Assembly (NCBI GenBank): GCA_016928075.1
Contig: JAFGLJ010000029.1
Coordinates: 1-64,000, forward strand
DNA length: 64,000 bases
DNA from: Bacteroidales bacterium
Lineage (GTDB): Bacteria; Bacteroidota; Bacteroidia; Bacteroidales; VadinHA17
Direction of reading: 5' to 3'
In this document: piece by piece, positions 15,153 to 19,328 of the stretch
How positions within the stretch are numbered: position 1 is the stretch's first letter
Layout of the letters: each line of letters starts with the position of its first letter
Translations under genes and position numbers: made by a program
Notes under the pieces: generated by a model
Told to the model about the DNA's origin: nothing
The model's database searches: none
The model's input: only the letters and a program-made list of their open reading frames with translations

Positions 15153-16148
15153 TTAGAATTCGGGGCATGGAACAGCATGAAACATTCTTCTCCTGGTGCC
15201 TAATGATGAAGTAATAAACTCATATACCAGTGAAATTTCATGTGAGCCACCAGTGGATGCTATGAGATTGGAGATAGTGAAATCATAAGAATAGCCAATA
15301 TGCAGTTTTTCGGTTTTCACACCTATAAGTGCAATAAGTGCATCGCCTGCCTGGCTGGTAACGAAAGGAATTCCCCTGTACCACAAGCCGAAAATTAAAG
15401 GATCCCTGTAGTAATAAAGTCCGAGGTCTGACTGCCAGAACCGATCCTGGTATTTAATATTACCTGCAATTGATATTACTTCCGAGTACCTGTTCAGCAG
15501 TCTTCCCCTCCTTGATATCTGGACTCCGCCAAAAACATTTACCTTTACCGGAACGTGAGTATCCCAGTCGCCATAGAATGACTGACGCGGCTGAAAAAGG
15601 TGATCAAGGTTAAATCCTCCCCATATTCGGTCATTATAAGCCATTGCTGAGAAAGCAAAATCTACATCTGCCACTCCTTCGAAGGGAGGTGGGTAAACCG
15701 AGGGGGTGGTACCCCTGGCGGTAATCATGCTGTTCCATATCAGCTTGCCGTAATTAAGTCCAAGGTAGATAAACTTGAAATTAATCCCCGGCCGTATATG
15801 CCAGTCCTGGTTAAGCTGGATATCGTATGAATAAAGAAGGCCTATATTGGTAGTGCTCAGGTCGCCCGATCCGGCAACATCATAGGTTGCCAGAACGCCT
15901 ATTCCCGAGCGGAAATTAGGAAGATACCTGTCATAGCTGAAACTATATGTATTGAACACACCTGTTACAGAGGGCCACTGATTCCTGTAATTTATTGAAA
16001 TCCTGTTTTCTTCAATGGCGCCCGTAAATGAAGGGGCAAGGTATAGTGCATTGGCATAGAACTGCGAAAAGTGCGGATCCTGAGCTTTTAATCCGGCAGA
16101 AACGAATACGCAAAACAAGATTATTGTATATCTAATTCGTGTTAGCAA
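15153..16148 (-). CDS. PorP/SprF-family type IX secretion outer-membrane protein
   Basis: 331 residues with a signal peptide ending LKAQ, then DPHFSQFYANALYLAPSFTG, the hallmark start of PorP/SprF proteins, followed by alternating barrel strands such as ISINYRNQWPSVTGVFNTYS and LHIGYSYDFTISNL. PorP/SprF partners are needed to deliver or attach T9SS cargo with type B C-terminal domains. The upstream gene on the same strand (168 bp away) encodes exactly such a C-terminal domain. No cytosolic role is expected; it should sit in the outer membrane. Confidence 0.9.
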   Translation of the reverse strand: MLTRIRYTIILFCVFVSAGLKAQDPHFSQFYANALYLAPSFTGAIEENRISINYRNQWPSVTGVFNTYSFSYDRYLPNFRSGIGVLATYDVAGSGDLSTTNIGLLYSYDIQLNQDWHIRPGINFKFIYLGLNYGKLIWNSMITARGTTPSVYPPPFEGVADVDFAFSAMAYNDRIWGGFNLDHLFQPRQSFYGDWDTHVPVKVNVFGGVQISRRGRLLNRYSEVISIAGNIKYQDRFWQSDLGLYYYRDPLIFGLWYRGIPFVTSQAGDALIALIGVKTEKLHIGYSYDFTISNLIASTGGSHEISLVYEFITSSLGTRRRMFHAVPCPEF

Positions 16149-16315
16149 GTCAGATTCTGTTTAGACCAGTAAGTACGAAATTAACGAAATGTACTAAAAT
16201 AAGTTACATTTTTCACATATTTATTGCATAAAAACTAACAAAGCGTTTGATTTTTGAACATTCAAGGATAGAAGACTAAGGATTTGGATTGGCGATAAGC
16301 CTCATAATTAAACAA

Positions 16316-17641
16316 TTACCATTTTGGAAGCAGGGTAAGGTCCCCACCTTTTACAAATGGTTCACCGGTTTTATACATTCCGCGAACTTTCCATATATAT
16401 ACTCCCGGTTCTGCTTTCTGGCCTTTATAATACCCATCCCATCCTATTTGGATATCATCTGTTTCAAAAACAAGGATTCCTCTTCTGCTGTAAATACGCA
16501 GATTATATGATGTGACACCTGACCATACCGGATGGAATACTTCTTCATTCTGGTCACTCCTGTTCGAATAATAGCCTCCCGTAGGGCCGCCTTCATTCGG
16601 GACGAAAGCATTAGGGAATTTAATGAAGCAGGTATTATCGCCGAATGCATTTGTGATAACCATGCTATCTGTACATCCCTGCTCAGATATAGCTATAAGT
16701 GTAACAGAGTATGATCCCGGTTTTTTATAGAAATGTGATGGTTCAAACTCATCGCTGGTATTACCGTCACCAAAATTCCATTTCCATGCGACCGAATTCT
16801 GAGAGTAGTTATAAAAGCGTATCTCTTCATCAGGTATTGCGGGATTACCCTCACTTACTTCGAATCTGGCCATCGGTTTTGGATAGACATTTACTGTTTC
16901 CCTTGCAGTTACCCTTGACCCGTTCTCCCCAAAAAGTATCAGTCTCACTTCATATCTGCCAGGTTCATCATATACCCAAACAGGGTTCAGCTCGGTACTG
17001 ATACCACCATCATCAAATTCCCAGATACATGAATCATAATTATGCGACAGGTTTATGAACGAAACATTGAGTGGAGCACATCCAGTATTTACATCGGGTT
17101 TAAAATTTGCCATTGGCGCCGGTTTTGCAAGAGATTCCAGGCTAACTTTTTTATCCATGGGTAAGCGCTTCAGGTTATCATCAGTACGCATTTCAGCTAT
17201 ATCATTGACAGTAATATCTTTTCCCTGTTCTTGAATCTCATCTTCAATTATCCCCTGAGGATGTTTTTGTTCATTTATGCCCTTCGAGGTTATACGCTGT
17301 TCCTCGTTTGTTCTCTTTTCAGGTGGCAGGTTATAATCTTCTTTATTTATAATGTTTCGTGAAGCCACTGGTAAAGAATCAGAATCGATAATTATTTTCT
17401 GTGATTCCCTGGATGTTTCTGCATTTTTTATGGTAAGTACTGATATTGTAACTGAAGCAACGGTAATGAGTCCTGCGAGGTAATATATATTGAAGCTTCC
17501 CGGCCTGAAATGCATAAACTCCCTGAAGCGGAGTTTCTTTACAAAACGCGGCCAGAAATTATCAGGAACATTATGCTCTCTGTTACCGAGCTTAGTCCTG
17601 TATAATTCCTCAATATTTTTATATTTCCCCGTATTATTCAA
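16316..17641 (-). CDS. Membrane-anchored PKD protein with gliding-motility/T9SS type B C-terminal domain
   Basis: 441 residues. No cleavable signal; a cytoplasmic N-terminus (residues 1–48, IEELYRTKLGNREHNVPDNF) resembles Bacteroidota anti-sigma N-termini, followed by one membrane helix (about 50–70), a charged linker (75–170), two PKD domains (about 176–253 with WEFDDGG, and 256–332 with WNFGDGN) and a gliding-motility-associated C-terminal domain (about 336–441: FIKFPNAFVPNE … NLRIYSRRGILVFE … GWDGYYKGQKAEPGVYIW). It lies 9 bp after the ECF sigma gene and before porP/sprF, all on the minus strand. The mix of a sigma-linked N-terminus with a T9SS domain is unusual. Whether it binds the sigma factor is inferred from layout. 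Confidence 0.85.
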   Translation of the reverse strand: MNNTGKYKNIEELYRTKLGNREHNVPDNFWPRFVKKLRFREFMHFRPGSFNIYYLAGLITVASVTISVLTIKNAETSRESQKIIIDSDSLPVASRNIINKEDYNLPPEKRTNEEQRITSKGINEQKHPQGIIEDEIQEQGKDITVNDIAEMRTDDNLKRLPMDKKVSLESLAKPAPMANFKPDVNTGCAPLNVSFINLSHNYDSCIWEFDDGGISTELNPVWVYDEPGRYEVRLILFGENGSRVTARETVNVYPKPMARFEVSEGNPAIPDEEIRFYNYSQNSVAWKWNFGDGNTSDEFEPSHFYKKPGSYSVTLIAISEQGCTDSMVITNAFGDNTCFIKFPNAFVPNEGGPTGGYYSNRSDQNEEVFHPVWSGVTSYNLRIYSRRGILVFETDDIQIGWDGYYKGQKAEPGVYIWKVRGMYKTGEPFVKGGDLTLLPKW

Positions 17642-17650
17642 GCTCTGTGT

Positions 17651-18184
17651 TTATTTATAATTCTCCAGTTTCTTACGCAAGAAAGCTTTTGCGCGTGAAT
17701 ATTGTGATTTTGATGTATTTACGTCTATATCAAGCATTTCTGCTATTTCCTTATGTTTGTATCCTTCTATTGCATAAAGGGAAAAAACTACTTTATAGCC
17801 CGGCGGCAGTAAATCAAGTACTTTCTGAAGTTCTTCATCTGTGTACCTTGAGCCAATGTAACTATTATCACCTCCTTCACTGGTATATAATTCTTCGATC
17901 TCGATATAATGCTTGTGCTTGAGATTCTTATGATAATAAGTAATAGCGGTGTTTATTACTATCCGCCTCATCCAGCCTATAAAAGAACCTTCTCCGCTAT
18001 AATCTTTTATATTAATATATATCTTCAGCAAACTTTCCTGGAGTATGTCTTCAGCTTCCGGGATATCTGTAGCATACCTTACACATATTCCCATCAATAT
18101 TCCCGAATATTTCTCAAAAAGCATTTTCTGAGAAAGCCTGTCATGTTTAAGACATCCTTCGAGTATTTGCCGGTCACTTATCAT
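17651..18184 (-). CDS. ECF-family RNA polymerase sigma factor
   Basis: Group 4 sigma factor of 177 residues from MISDRQILEGCLKHDRLSQK; an in-frame ATG at 18211 would add nine residues (MQVSNLVSV) that the family normally lacks. Sigma-2 region: DIPEAEDILQESLLKIYINI and GSFIGWMRRIVINTAITYY; sigma-4 region: LPPGYKVVFSLYAIEGYKHK and EIAEMLDIDVNTSKSQYSRA. It is followed 9 bp later by the membrane-anchored PKD/T9SS-domain gene, which takes the usual place of an anti-sigma factor. A minus-strand TAAATTTG box (18237–18230) lies upstream, without a clear -33. Confidence 0.92.
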   Translation of the reverse strand: MISDRQILEGCLKHDRLSQKMLFEKYSGILMGICVRYATDIPEAEDILQESLLKIYINIKDYSGEGSFIGWMRRIVINTAITYYHKNLKHKHYIEIEELYTSEGGDNSYIGSRYTDEELQKVLDLLPPGYKVVFSLYAIEGYKHKEIAEMLDIDVNTSKSQYSRAKAFLRKKLENYK

Positions 18185-18416
18185 TACGGAGACCAAATTA
18201 GAGACTTGCAATTATTTAAAATGGTTGCACAAATTTAAGAGCTTAATAGAAATATTGTAGATTTAAATTTGAACTATTTTACCCCGTATACTAAATTTAT
18301 CGAGAAATGTTCCAATTTTTCCGCCAAATCATATTCTCGTAACGACAAACATTATTAACTTGGCGCCCAAATTTTAATTTTTTTACGTAAAAAAGTAGAA
18401 CTTAAATACCTGACCA

Positions 18417-19328
18417 ATGTTCAACAGATTTATTGCATCCATTTTACCATATTTCCCCCAGAAATTTGTATGGATATTCTCAAAGCCATATGTATCGGGG
18501 AAGACTGCACATGACGCAATCAGGGTATCCAAAGATTTCAATTCCCATGGAATTAAAGTAACTCTTGATGTTCTCGGAGAGTTTATCAAGACCCTTGAGG
18601 AAGCTGAAGCCAGCAAAAAAGAATACCTTGACCTCATAGACCTTACGGAAAAGAATAAAATAGATGGCAATTACTCAATCAAGCCAACCAGTTTTGGTCT
18701 GCTCCTGGACAAGGAAATATGTTACCATAATATTCGCGAGGTTGTAAAGAAAGCTGTTGAATACAATAATTTTATCAGGATTGACATGGAAGATTCGCCA
18801 TGTACTGATCTTGAAATAGAATTATTCAGGAAGCTTCATAAAGAATTTCCTAAAAATGTAGGCATAGTTTTCCAGGCTTACCTTAAGAGAACGCTTGATG
18901 ATATTAAAGGTTTAATGGATCTGCACTCTGAAGAAACACCCCTGAATATCAGGTTATGCAAAGGAATATATGTTGAGCCTGCAGAAATAGCATTTAAAAA
19001 GTATGAAGAGGTAAATGAAAATTTCCTTATAGACATTGAATATATGCTCCAGAACAAGATATATTCAGGTATAGCCACTCACGACAAACCCCTTATTGAA
19101 GGATCATATGAACTCATTAAGAAGTACAATGTGCCGAAAAATATGTATGAATTCCAGATGCTTTACGGGGTTACGCCAAAGTTGAGGCAAAGTATCGTTG
19201 ATGACGGTCACGTTATGAGAATATACGTACCTTTTGGAAAAGACTGGTTTGGTTATTCAACCAGGCGGCTTAAGGAAAACCCGAAGATGGCTTCTCACAT
19301 TATTAAGGCGATATTCTATAAAGGGTGA
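18417..19328 (+). CDS. Proline dehydrogenase (monofunctional PRODH)
   Basis: FAD enzyme oxidising L-proline to pyrroline-5-carboxylate, feeding electrons to quinone. 303 residues, the stand-alone PRODH size. TIM-barrel motifs: IKPTSFGLLLD (about 85–95), FIRIDMEDS (about 120–128), FQAYLKRT (about 154–161), LNIRLCKGIY (about 177–186) and the C-terminal MRIYVPFGKDWFGYSTRRL that carries the substrate-binding Tyr/Arg-Arg. No P5C dehydrogenase gene is in the window. Gene starts after a 232-bp divergent intergenic region shared with the sigma factor and ends before a hairpin. Confidence 0.92.
   Translation: MFNRFIASILPYFPQKFVWIFSKPYVSGKTAHDAIRVSKDFNSHGIKVTLDVLGEFIKTLEEAEASKKEYLDLIDLTEKNKIDGNYSIKPTSFGLLLDKEICYHNIREVVKKAVEYNNFIRIDMEDSPCTDLEIELFRKLHKEFPKNVGIVFQAYLKRTLDDIKGLMDLHSEETPLNIRLCKGIYVEPAEIAFKKYEEVNENFLIDIEYMLQNKIYSGIATHDKPLIEGSYELIKKYNVPKNMYEFQMLYGVTPKLRQSIVDDGHVMRIYVPFGKDWFGYSTRRLKENPKMASHIIKAIFYKG

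Follow-up and report, generated by a model that had tools for sequence, protein, structure and literature searches.

A candidate anti-sigma switch across the cell envelope for giant T9SS adhesins in Bacteroidales

FecR-type anti-sigma factors lie in the inner membrane, and their periplasmic end communicates with an outer-membrane TonB-dependent receptor. FlgM, an anti-sigma factor of flagella, is itself an export substrate. How Bacteroidota match the output of adhesins of more than 5,000 residues to export by scarce, non-recycled carriers is not known to have been settled. The Dma proteins of Bacteroides thetaiotaomicron have been proposed to act as glycan sensors at the cell surface (PMC13088901). 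In the type IX secretion system (T9SS), type B substrates require a specific carrier, which is scarce and is not recycled (PMC12618676), and PorP-like proteins bind proteins with a type B C-terminal domain (CTD) (PMC9143113). In Flavobacterium johnsoniae a cysteine in the tail of the carrier SprF is disulfide-bonded to the gliding-track protein GldK (PMC12635249).

The locus described here lies in the window, by which we mean the whole stretch of 64,000 nucleotides that was analysed, and comes from a fragmented, metagenome-like assembly (76 contigs, 76% complete). From 18184 down to 15153 on the minus strand it consists of a sigma gene, 9 nt, an anti-sigma gene of 441 codons, 167 nt and a PorP/SprF gene. 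Its features are:

18203..18229, minus strand: putative ECF-type promoter element TGCAACC-N17-GTC of the sigma operon (53 of 53 loci)
17651..18184, minus strand: ECF sigma factor gene (Pfam regions 2 and 4; conserved ATG at 18184)
16316..17641, minus strand: gene of the membrane-anchored Dma-like anti-sigma factor with PKD domains and type B CTD, 441 aa, TTG start (Pfam, NCBIfam, alignment, HMM, AlphaFold2)
17489..17641, minus strand: its cytoplasmic N-terminal domain, putative sigma-binding region, residues 1-51 (HMM A2)
17426..17488, minus strand: its single membrane helix, residues 52-72 (AlphaFold2; one hydrophobic segment in 24 of 24 orthologues)
17135..17419, minus strand: its disordered polar tether, residues 75-169 (pLDDT <50)
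16883..17119, minus strand: its PKD domain 1, residues 175-253 (Pfam PKD_4; pLDDT ~97)
16652..16876, minus strand: its PKD domain 2, residues 256-330 (best PKD_4 stretch 282-326; pLDDT mostly high)
16319..16630, minus strand: its T9SS type B CTD, of the GPTGGYY subtype common to adhesins, residues 338-441 (CHU_C, alignments, tree)
15153..16148, minus strand: gene of a PorP/SprF-family outer-membrane protein, probable CTD carrier (PF11751, TIGR03519, 14-strand model)
15165..15167, minus strand: codon of Cys328 in the invariant PorP tail PCPEF (59 of 59 distinct orthologues)

The layout of the trio recalls Dma, its docking pair recalls SprB-SprF and, by our reading, its logic is like that of FlgM. 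Judged from sequence, it lacks one defining feature of each family against which it was tested: the barrel of Dma, the signal peptide of cargo and the second tail cysteine of SprF.

The three genes (ECF sigma factor, gene in the anti-sigma position, PorP/SprF) were all found on the minus strand where the initial annotation had put them, and Pfam agreed: the sigma protein matched Sigma70_r4_2 (1.9e-15) and Sigma70_r2 (3.3e-11), the PorP protein PF11751 (PorP_SprF, 6e-55) and also TIGR03519 (7e-63). Conservation of the trio had been named beforehand as one of the points on which the proposal could fail, and it held. The order sigma/anti-sigma/PorP is intact in 41 of the 44 named loci with enough flanking sequence, a count that leaves out named loci ending at a contig or stretch edge; in the other three (L074, L092, L103) PorP is not adjacent. 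The anti-sigma gene adjoins an ECF sigma gene in every locus that holds both. Because of this conserved order, and because 24 full-length orthologues could be aligned, the arrangement cannot be attributed to chance. The trio-bearing records are metagenome-assembled genomes, mostly of Bacteroidales, and no cultured organism was found among them. A divergent proline dehydrogenase gene (18417-19328, plus strand) stands head-to-head with the sigma gene, as it does in most related loci.

The middle protein had been described as an anti-sigma-like N-terminus, one helix, two PKD domains and a type B CTD, a layout with which HMM, hydropathy, Pfam, AlphaFold2 and alignments all agree. The AlphaFold2 model consists of two short helices, the membrane helix, the disordered segment, the PKD domains, both predicted with confidence, and then the CTD. 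By hydropathy, every one of the 24 orthologues has a single clear membrane segment, with about 45-70 mostly hydrophilic residues ahead of it and, in most of them, a tether of roughly 95-125 residues, about 70% polar, behind it. The alignment of these orthologues shows a variable tether between conserved parts, namely the N-terminal region and the helix on one side and the PKD-CTD part on the other. None of the 24 appears to have a cleavable N-terminal Sec signal peptide, the helix being preceded by the hydrophilic stretch. Pfam found PKD_4 in two stretches (5e-25); neither Pfam nor NCBIfam gave a match to a FecR domain. Solved structures gave nothing beyond generic hits to PKD and giant-adhesin proteins, among them the Aureispira grappling hook protein and SiiE.

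The CTD scored 26.8 bits (5.6e-6) on the CHU_C type IX signal model, just below the 27-bit cut-off, and 20.2 bits on TIGR04131, whose cut-off is 35; taken alone, these scores are marginal. The entire PKD-plus-CTD part can be aligned, at ~37-46% identity, with the C-terminal ends of secreted proteins 850-5,800 aa long, and a CTD of the GPTGGYY type is likewise found at the C-terminus of large secreted proteins encoded in these genomes. Despite the sub-threshold scores on the general models, full-length homology to adhesin CTDs thus argues for a type B CTD. In a quick tree the anti-sigma CTDs formed one group (support 83) nested among the adhesin CTDs; the rows L018, L075 and L097, labelled adhesin in that tree, are anti-sigma factors by length and gene context. 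We call an adhesin giant if it exceeds 5,000 aa. A homologue of the giant adhesin of G003 is encoded immediately behind the anti-sigma gene in two genomes, G007 (E 2.6e-48) and G025 (E 1.7e-18); it is a giant adhesin in G007 and, by homology, also in G025. From the source genome, at 76% completeness, no giant adhesin with a GPTGGYY-type CTD was recovered.

The N-terminus was compared with other regulators by means of an HMM (A2) of residues 1-75, searched against 394 genomes of the phylum. Its matches were the N-terminal regions of proteins whose genes adjoin ECF sigma genes, and several of these proteins end in outer-membrane barrels. The best E-values on such barrel-type anti-sigma factors were 1e-6 to 1e-9, and the window protein is only about 20% identical to their N-termini. 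One matched locus (E 7e-4) has the gene order sigma, barrel anti-sigma, DUF4943, DUF4858, which is that of das2-dma2 of B. thetaiotaomicron (PMC13088901). The window sigma factor is 33% identical to the sigma factor of a dma2-type locus. On these sequence matches the middle protein is best described as a Dma-like anti-sigma factor in which an export/docking domain replaces the barrel, the barrel being a separate protein, and its N-terminus would bind the sigma factor. With Dma1/Dma2 and their ECF21 sigma factors it shares a homologous N-terminal anti-sigma domain, one membrane helix, a long disordered tether, a C-terminus directed to the outer membrane and an adjacent cognate ECF sigma gene; unlike Dma1/Dma2, which carry their own C-terminal beta-barrel, it has two PKD domains and a type B CTD, and the barrel, PorP, comes from a gene of its own further downstream (PMC13088901). 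We call it Dma-like, and not a member of the Dma family, because the same chain ends in PKD domains and CTD and contains no C-terminal beta-barrel. FecR-type systems (cf. PMC9249621) are similar in that the periplasmic end of an inner-membrane anti-sigma factor addresses an outer-membrane barrel, but the trio has neither a FecR domain nor a TonB receptor, and has a T9SS carrier instead.

The structure model of the PorP protein is a 14-strand barrel with a disordered C-terminal tail; no match to a solved structure was found. The tail PCPEF is present in all 59 distinct orthologues, and in 56 of them its cysteine is the only one of the mature protein. The source genome has seven PorP-family genes: one adjoins gldK, four lie directly behind their own CTD protein, and the remaining two are the trio PorP and one divergent copy. 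Among the seven, only the trio PorP ends in PCPEF. One orthologue of it was found in 28 of 31 genomes, and several proteins per genome bear the CTD subtype. PorP directly follows a large or giant adhesin in G004, G011 and G013, and it persists in G021, G028 and G032, where the sigma and anti-sigma genes are lost or fragmentary. These arrangements suggest that the trio PorP is a carrier of giant adhesins too, beside the anti-sigma factor, to whose CTD it would also dock. The gene adjacent to that of the CTD protein is of the cognate carrier type, as annotated; the protein looks, however, like the carrier of the adhesins and not of the anti-sigma factor alone.

Among the closest described systems is SprB-SprF of F. 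johnsoniae (PMC12635249, PMC12618676), which likewise combines a type B CTD, a PorP/SprF carrier with a conserved tail cysteine and giant adhesins, whereas in the trio the CTD protein is predicted to be an inner-membrane anti-sigma factor. The Cys-X-Cys motif of the SprF tail does not occur in the orthologues of the trio PorP, which have the one invariant cysteine of PCPEF. Transcription of the SprB operon in F. psychrophilum also differs from that proposed for the trio, as it depends on sigma-54 and a different motif (PMC9723704). In the PorE-PorP-PG1035 complex of P. gingivalis a PorP-like barrel also binds a type B CTD protein, but that complex has no regulatory part (PMC9143113).

The element TGCAACC-N17-GTC lies about 41 nt ahead of the sigma start in all 53 loci (0 of 10,600 shuffles), and the window has a single copy of it. 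With at most one mismatch it precedes six of six giant adhesin genes and two of 33 genes for other adhesins of this CTD type, a difference whose p value (8.6e-6) is optimistic, because the test followed the noticing of G003, which is included, and because related genomes are not independent. The match before the giant adhesins is exact in G003, G028, G032 and G042 and has one mismatch in G012 and G021. In G042 the sigma and adhesin promoter regions resemble each other beyond the core and on into the first part of the sigma gene. The element was not found before the adhesins of 850-870 aa. Judged by this motif, the sigma factor therefore probably acts on its own operon and on those giant adhesin genes whose products share the CTD, and not on the T9SS machinery. 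The coupling of envelope status to gene expression foreseen in the initial annotation remains plausible, since a periplasm-spanning protein fits it and Dma provides a precedent (PMC13088901), but its expected T9SS targets have given way to adhesins and the sigma operon.

Control of PorP by the sigma factor was considered and rejected: in the sequences ahead of PorP that were compared the element did not appear, and most of them have a different pattern in common. T9SS core genes were likewise dropped, as none occurred among the motif matches examined. Second strict matches in G000 and G010 are not promoters, because they lie inside conserved coding sequence. Each genome also holds a handful of other strict copies, located within coding sequence or next to genes with no evident relation, and these look like chance.

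Further occurrences are weaker evidence for the regulon because they were found via the motif itself. In the source genome the element precedes the gene of a secreted HYR/laminin-G protein, cut by the contig end at 1,291 residues (L239, G000:C17, 1-4013, minus strand); its counterpart in G003 has the same gene context, is preceded by the element and is likewise cut off. In G019 the element precedes an N-terminal fragment. Type A cargo may belong to the regulon as well, because in G003 the element stands before a gene (L245, 1729-4564, minus strand) whose 937-aa beta-helix product carries a T9SS type A signal. Another copy in the source genome (L240, G000:C33, 3535-5036) is located just before the second of two adjacent genes for similar secreted proteins of ~500 residues, and could be due to chance.

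The architecture and the regulon are well supported. For their purpose, we give about even chances to the view that the three proteins form a switch that spans the envelope, senses export and free carriers and controls the genes of giant T9SS surface adhesins. Somewhat more tentatively, it may be a T9SS checkpoint, in which an anti-sigma factor bearing a version of the adhesin docking domain would gate giant-adhesin synthesis by export capacity and free carriers, in the manner of FlgM. The N-terminus would hold the sigma factor in the cytoplasm, the helix would sit in the inner membrane and the disordered tether would cross the periplasm, so that the PKD-CTD end, a version of the export/docking domain of the adhesins, could meet the adjacently encoded PorP carrier as its outer-membrane partner. 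With a working T9SS and empty carriers, the CTD would be captured by T9SS/PorP; capture would cause tension, a conformational change or cleavage and release the sigma factor, which would then transcribe its own operon and the giant adhesin genes. Carriers filled by adhesins, or a block in export, would leave the CTD free and the sigma factor inhibited. A response of this sign, with adhesin synthesis following from free carriers and a working T9SS, would give stable negative feedback. How the signal might pass across the inner membrane is a presumed step in this scheme. The weakest step is the meeting of an inner-membrane-anchored protein with a carrier whose site is probably on the outer face: the anti-sigma factor may be pulled through SprA, may bind PorP from the periplasm or may be cleaved. 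Other points also speak against the switch: in G004, G005 and the g10 genus PorP and adhesin manage without the anti-sigma factor, the source assembly yielded no giant adhesin with this CTD, and the strict element has further copies in coding or unrelated places.

With the docking domain of the adhesins in its chain and the carrier gene next to its own, the regulator would be well placed to report export and carrier availability; such a tag beside a likely carrier may let the cell make costly giant adhesins only when they can be delivered. The proposed logic is that of FlgM, an anti-sigma factor with an export signal through which export capacity sets late-gene expression; FlgM, however, is soluble and lost from the cell, whereas the trio protein is predicted to be anchored and its export is only proposed. 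In P. gingivalis the T9SS-CTD protein PorA also affects an ECF sigma pathway (PorXY-SigP), but it is a secreted surface protein, acts via a two-component system instead of an anti-sigma factor and targets T9SS genes (PMC7712824). We found no description of an anti-sigma factor with a T9SS signal in the literature searched, which covered few subscription papers. If true, the proposed switch would be the first substrate-gated regulation for the T9SS and would show what one branch of the Dma-type anti-sigma factors senses; it predicts a sigma regulon, competition for one carrier and a disulfide to the gliding track.

The strongest alternative, which we consider unlikely, is a Dma-like surface sensor with a split barrel, whose CTD would merely anchor the anti-sigma factor to PorP; the signal would be an external ligand or outer-membrane stress, and the adhesins would be the output. 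The layout shared with the Dma proteins, which are proposed surface glycan sensors (PMC13088901), and the N-terminal homology to Dma-type anti-sigma factors speak for it, and the regulon evidence fits it equally well. By itself it leaves unexplained why the docking module is of the adhesins' own type and why one PorP serves both.

The anti-sigma factor might also report movement or tension of the gliding/T9SS track, and not carrier availability, if PorP were disulfide-linked to GldK through its tail cysteine. The invariant PCPEF tail with its usually sole cysteine, the bond of the SprF tail cysteine to GldK (PMC12635249) and the presence of GldK in the source genome and of GldJ in 20 of 20 relatives are in line with such a track sensor. 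Absence of the gliding machinery, suggested by the lack of GldJ in the source assembly, was rejected: as all 20 relatives checked have GldJ, the gap is likely to reflect incompleteness. This account is quite doubtful, however: SprF has a Cys-X-Cys pair where PorP has a single cysteine, the PorP-GldK bond is only predicted, and the tail need not concern signalling because it is also found on PorPs next to adhesins.

That the middle protein stands behind the sigma gene by accident, being either normal T9SS cargo with a much lengthened N-terminus or a fusion that plays no part in regulation, is very improbable. Cargo typically has such CTD and PKD domains, but the signal peptide is absent, 45-70 hydrophilic residues stand ahead of the membrane helix, the N-terminus is conserved and related to anti-sigma factors, and a sigma gene is adjacent in every locus that has both. 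An assembly artefact or chance gene fusion, conceivable in a fragmented assembly of this kind, is practically negligible, being refuted by conservation of the full-length protein in dozens of independent assemblies at 32-61% identity.

In several genomes the trio is incomplete or differently arranged. G023 has the sigma and PorP genes with no anti-sigma gene between them (L260). In G021 (L179), G028 (L180) and G032 (L181) PorP is intact, and sigma and anti-sigma genes are lost or only a fragment is left. In G011 a large secreted protein resembling YD-repeat proteins follows the anti-sigma gene instead of PorP (L258, 3140-5764), and PorP sits elsewhere, behind a giant adhesin. Another split of the theme was seen in G104 (L255, 1751-5424), where the order is sigma, a 205-aa anti-sigma factor, a separate 313-aa protein of unknown family and a type B CTD protein; the sigma gene there has the same promoter element.
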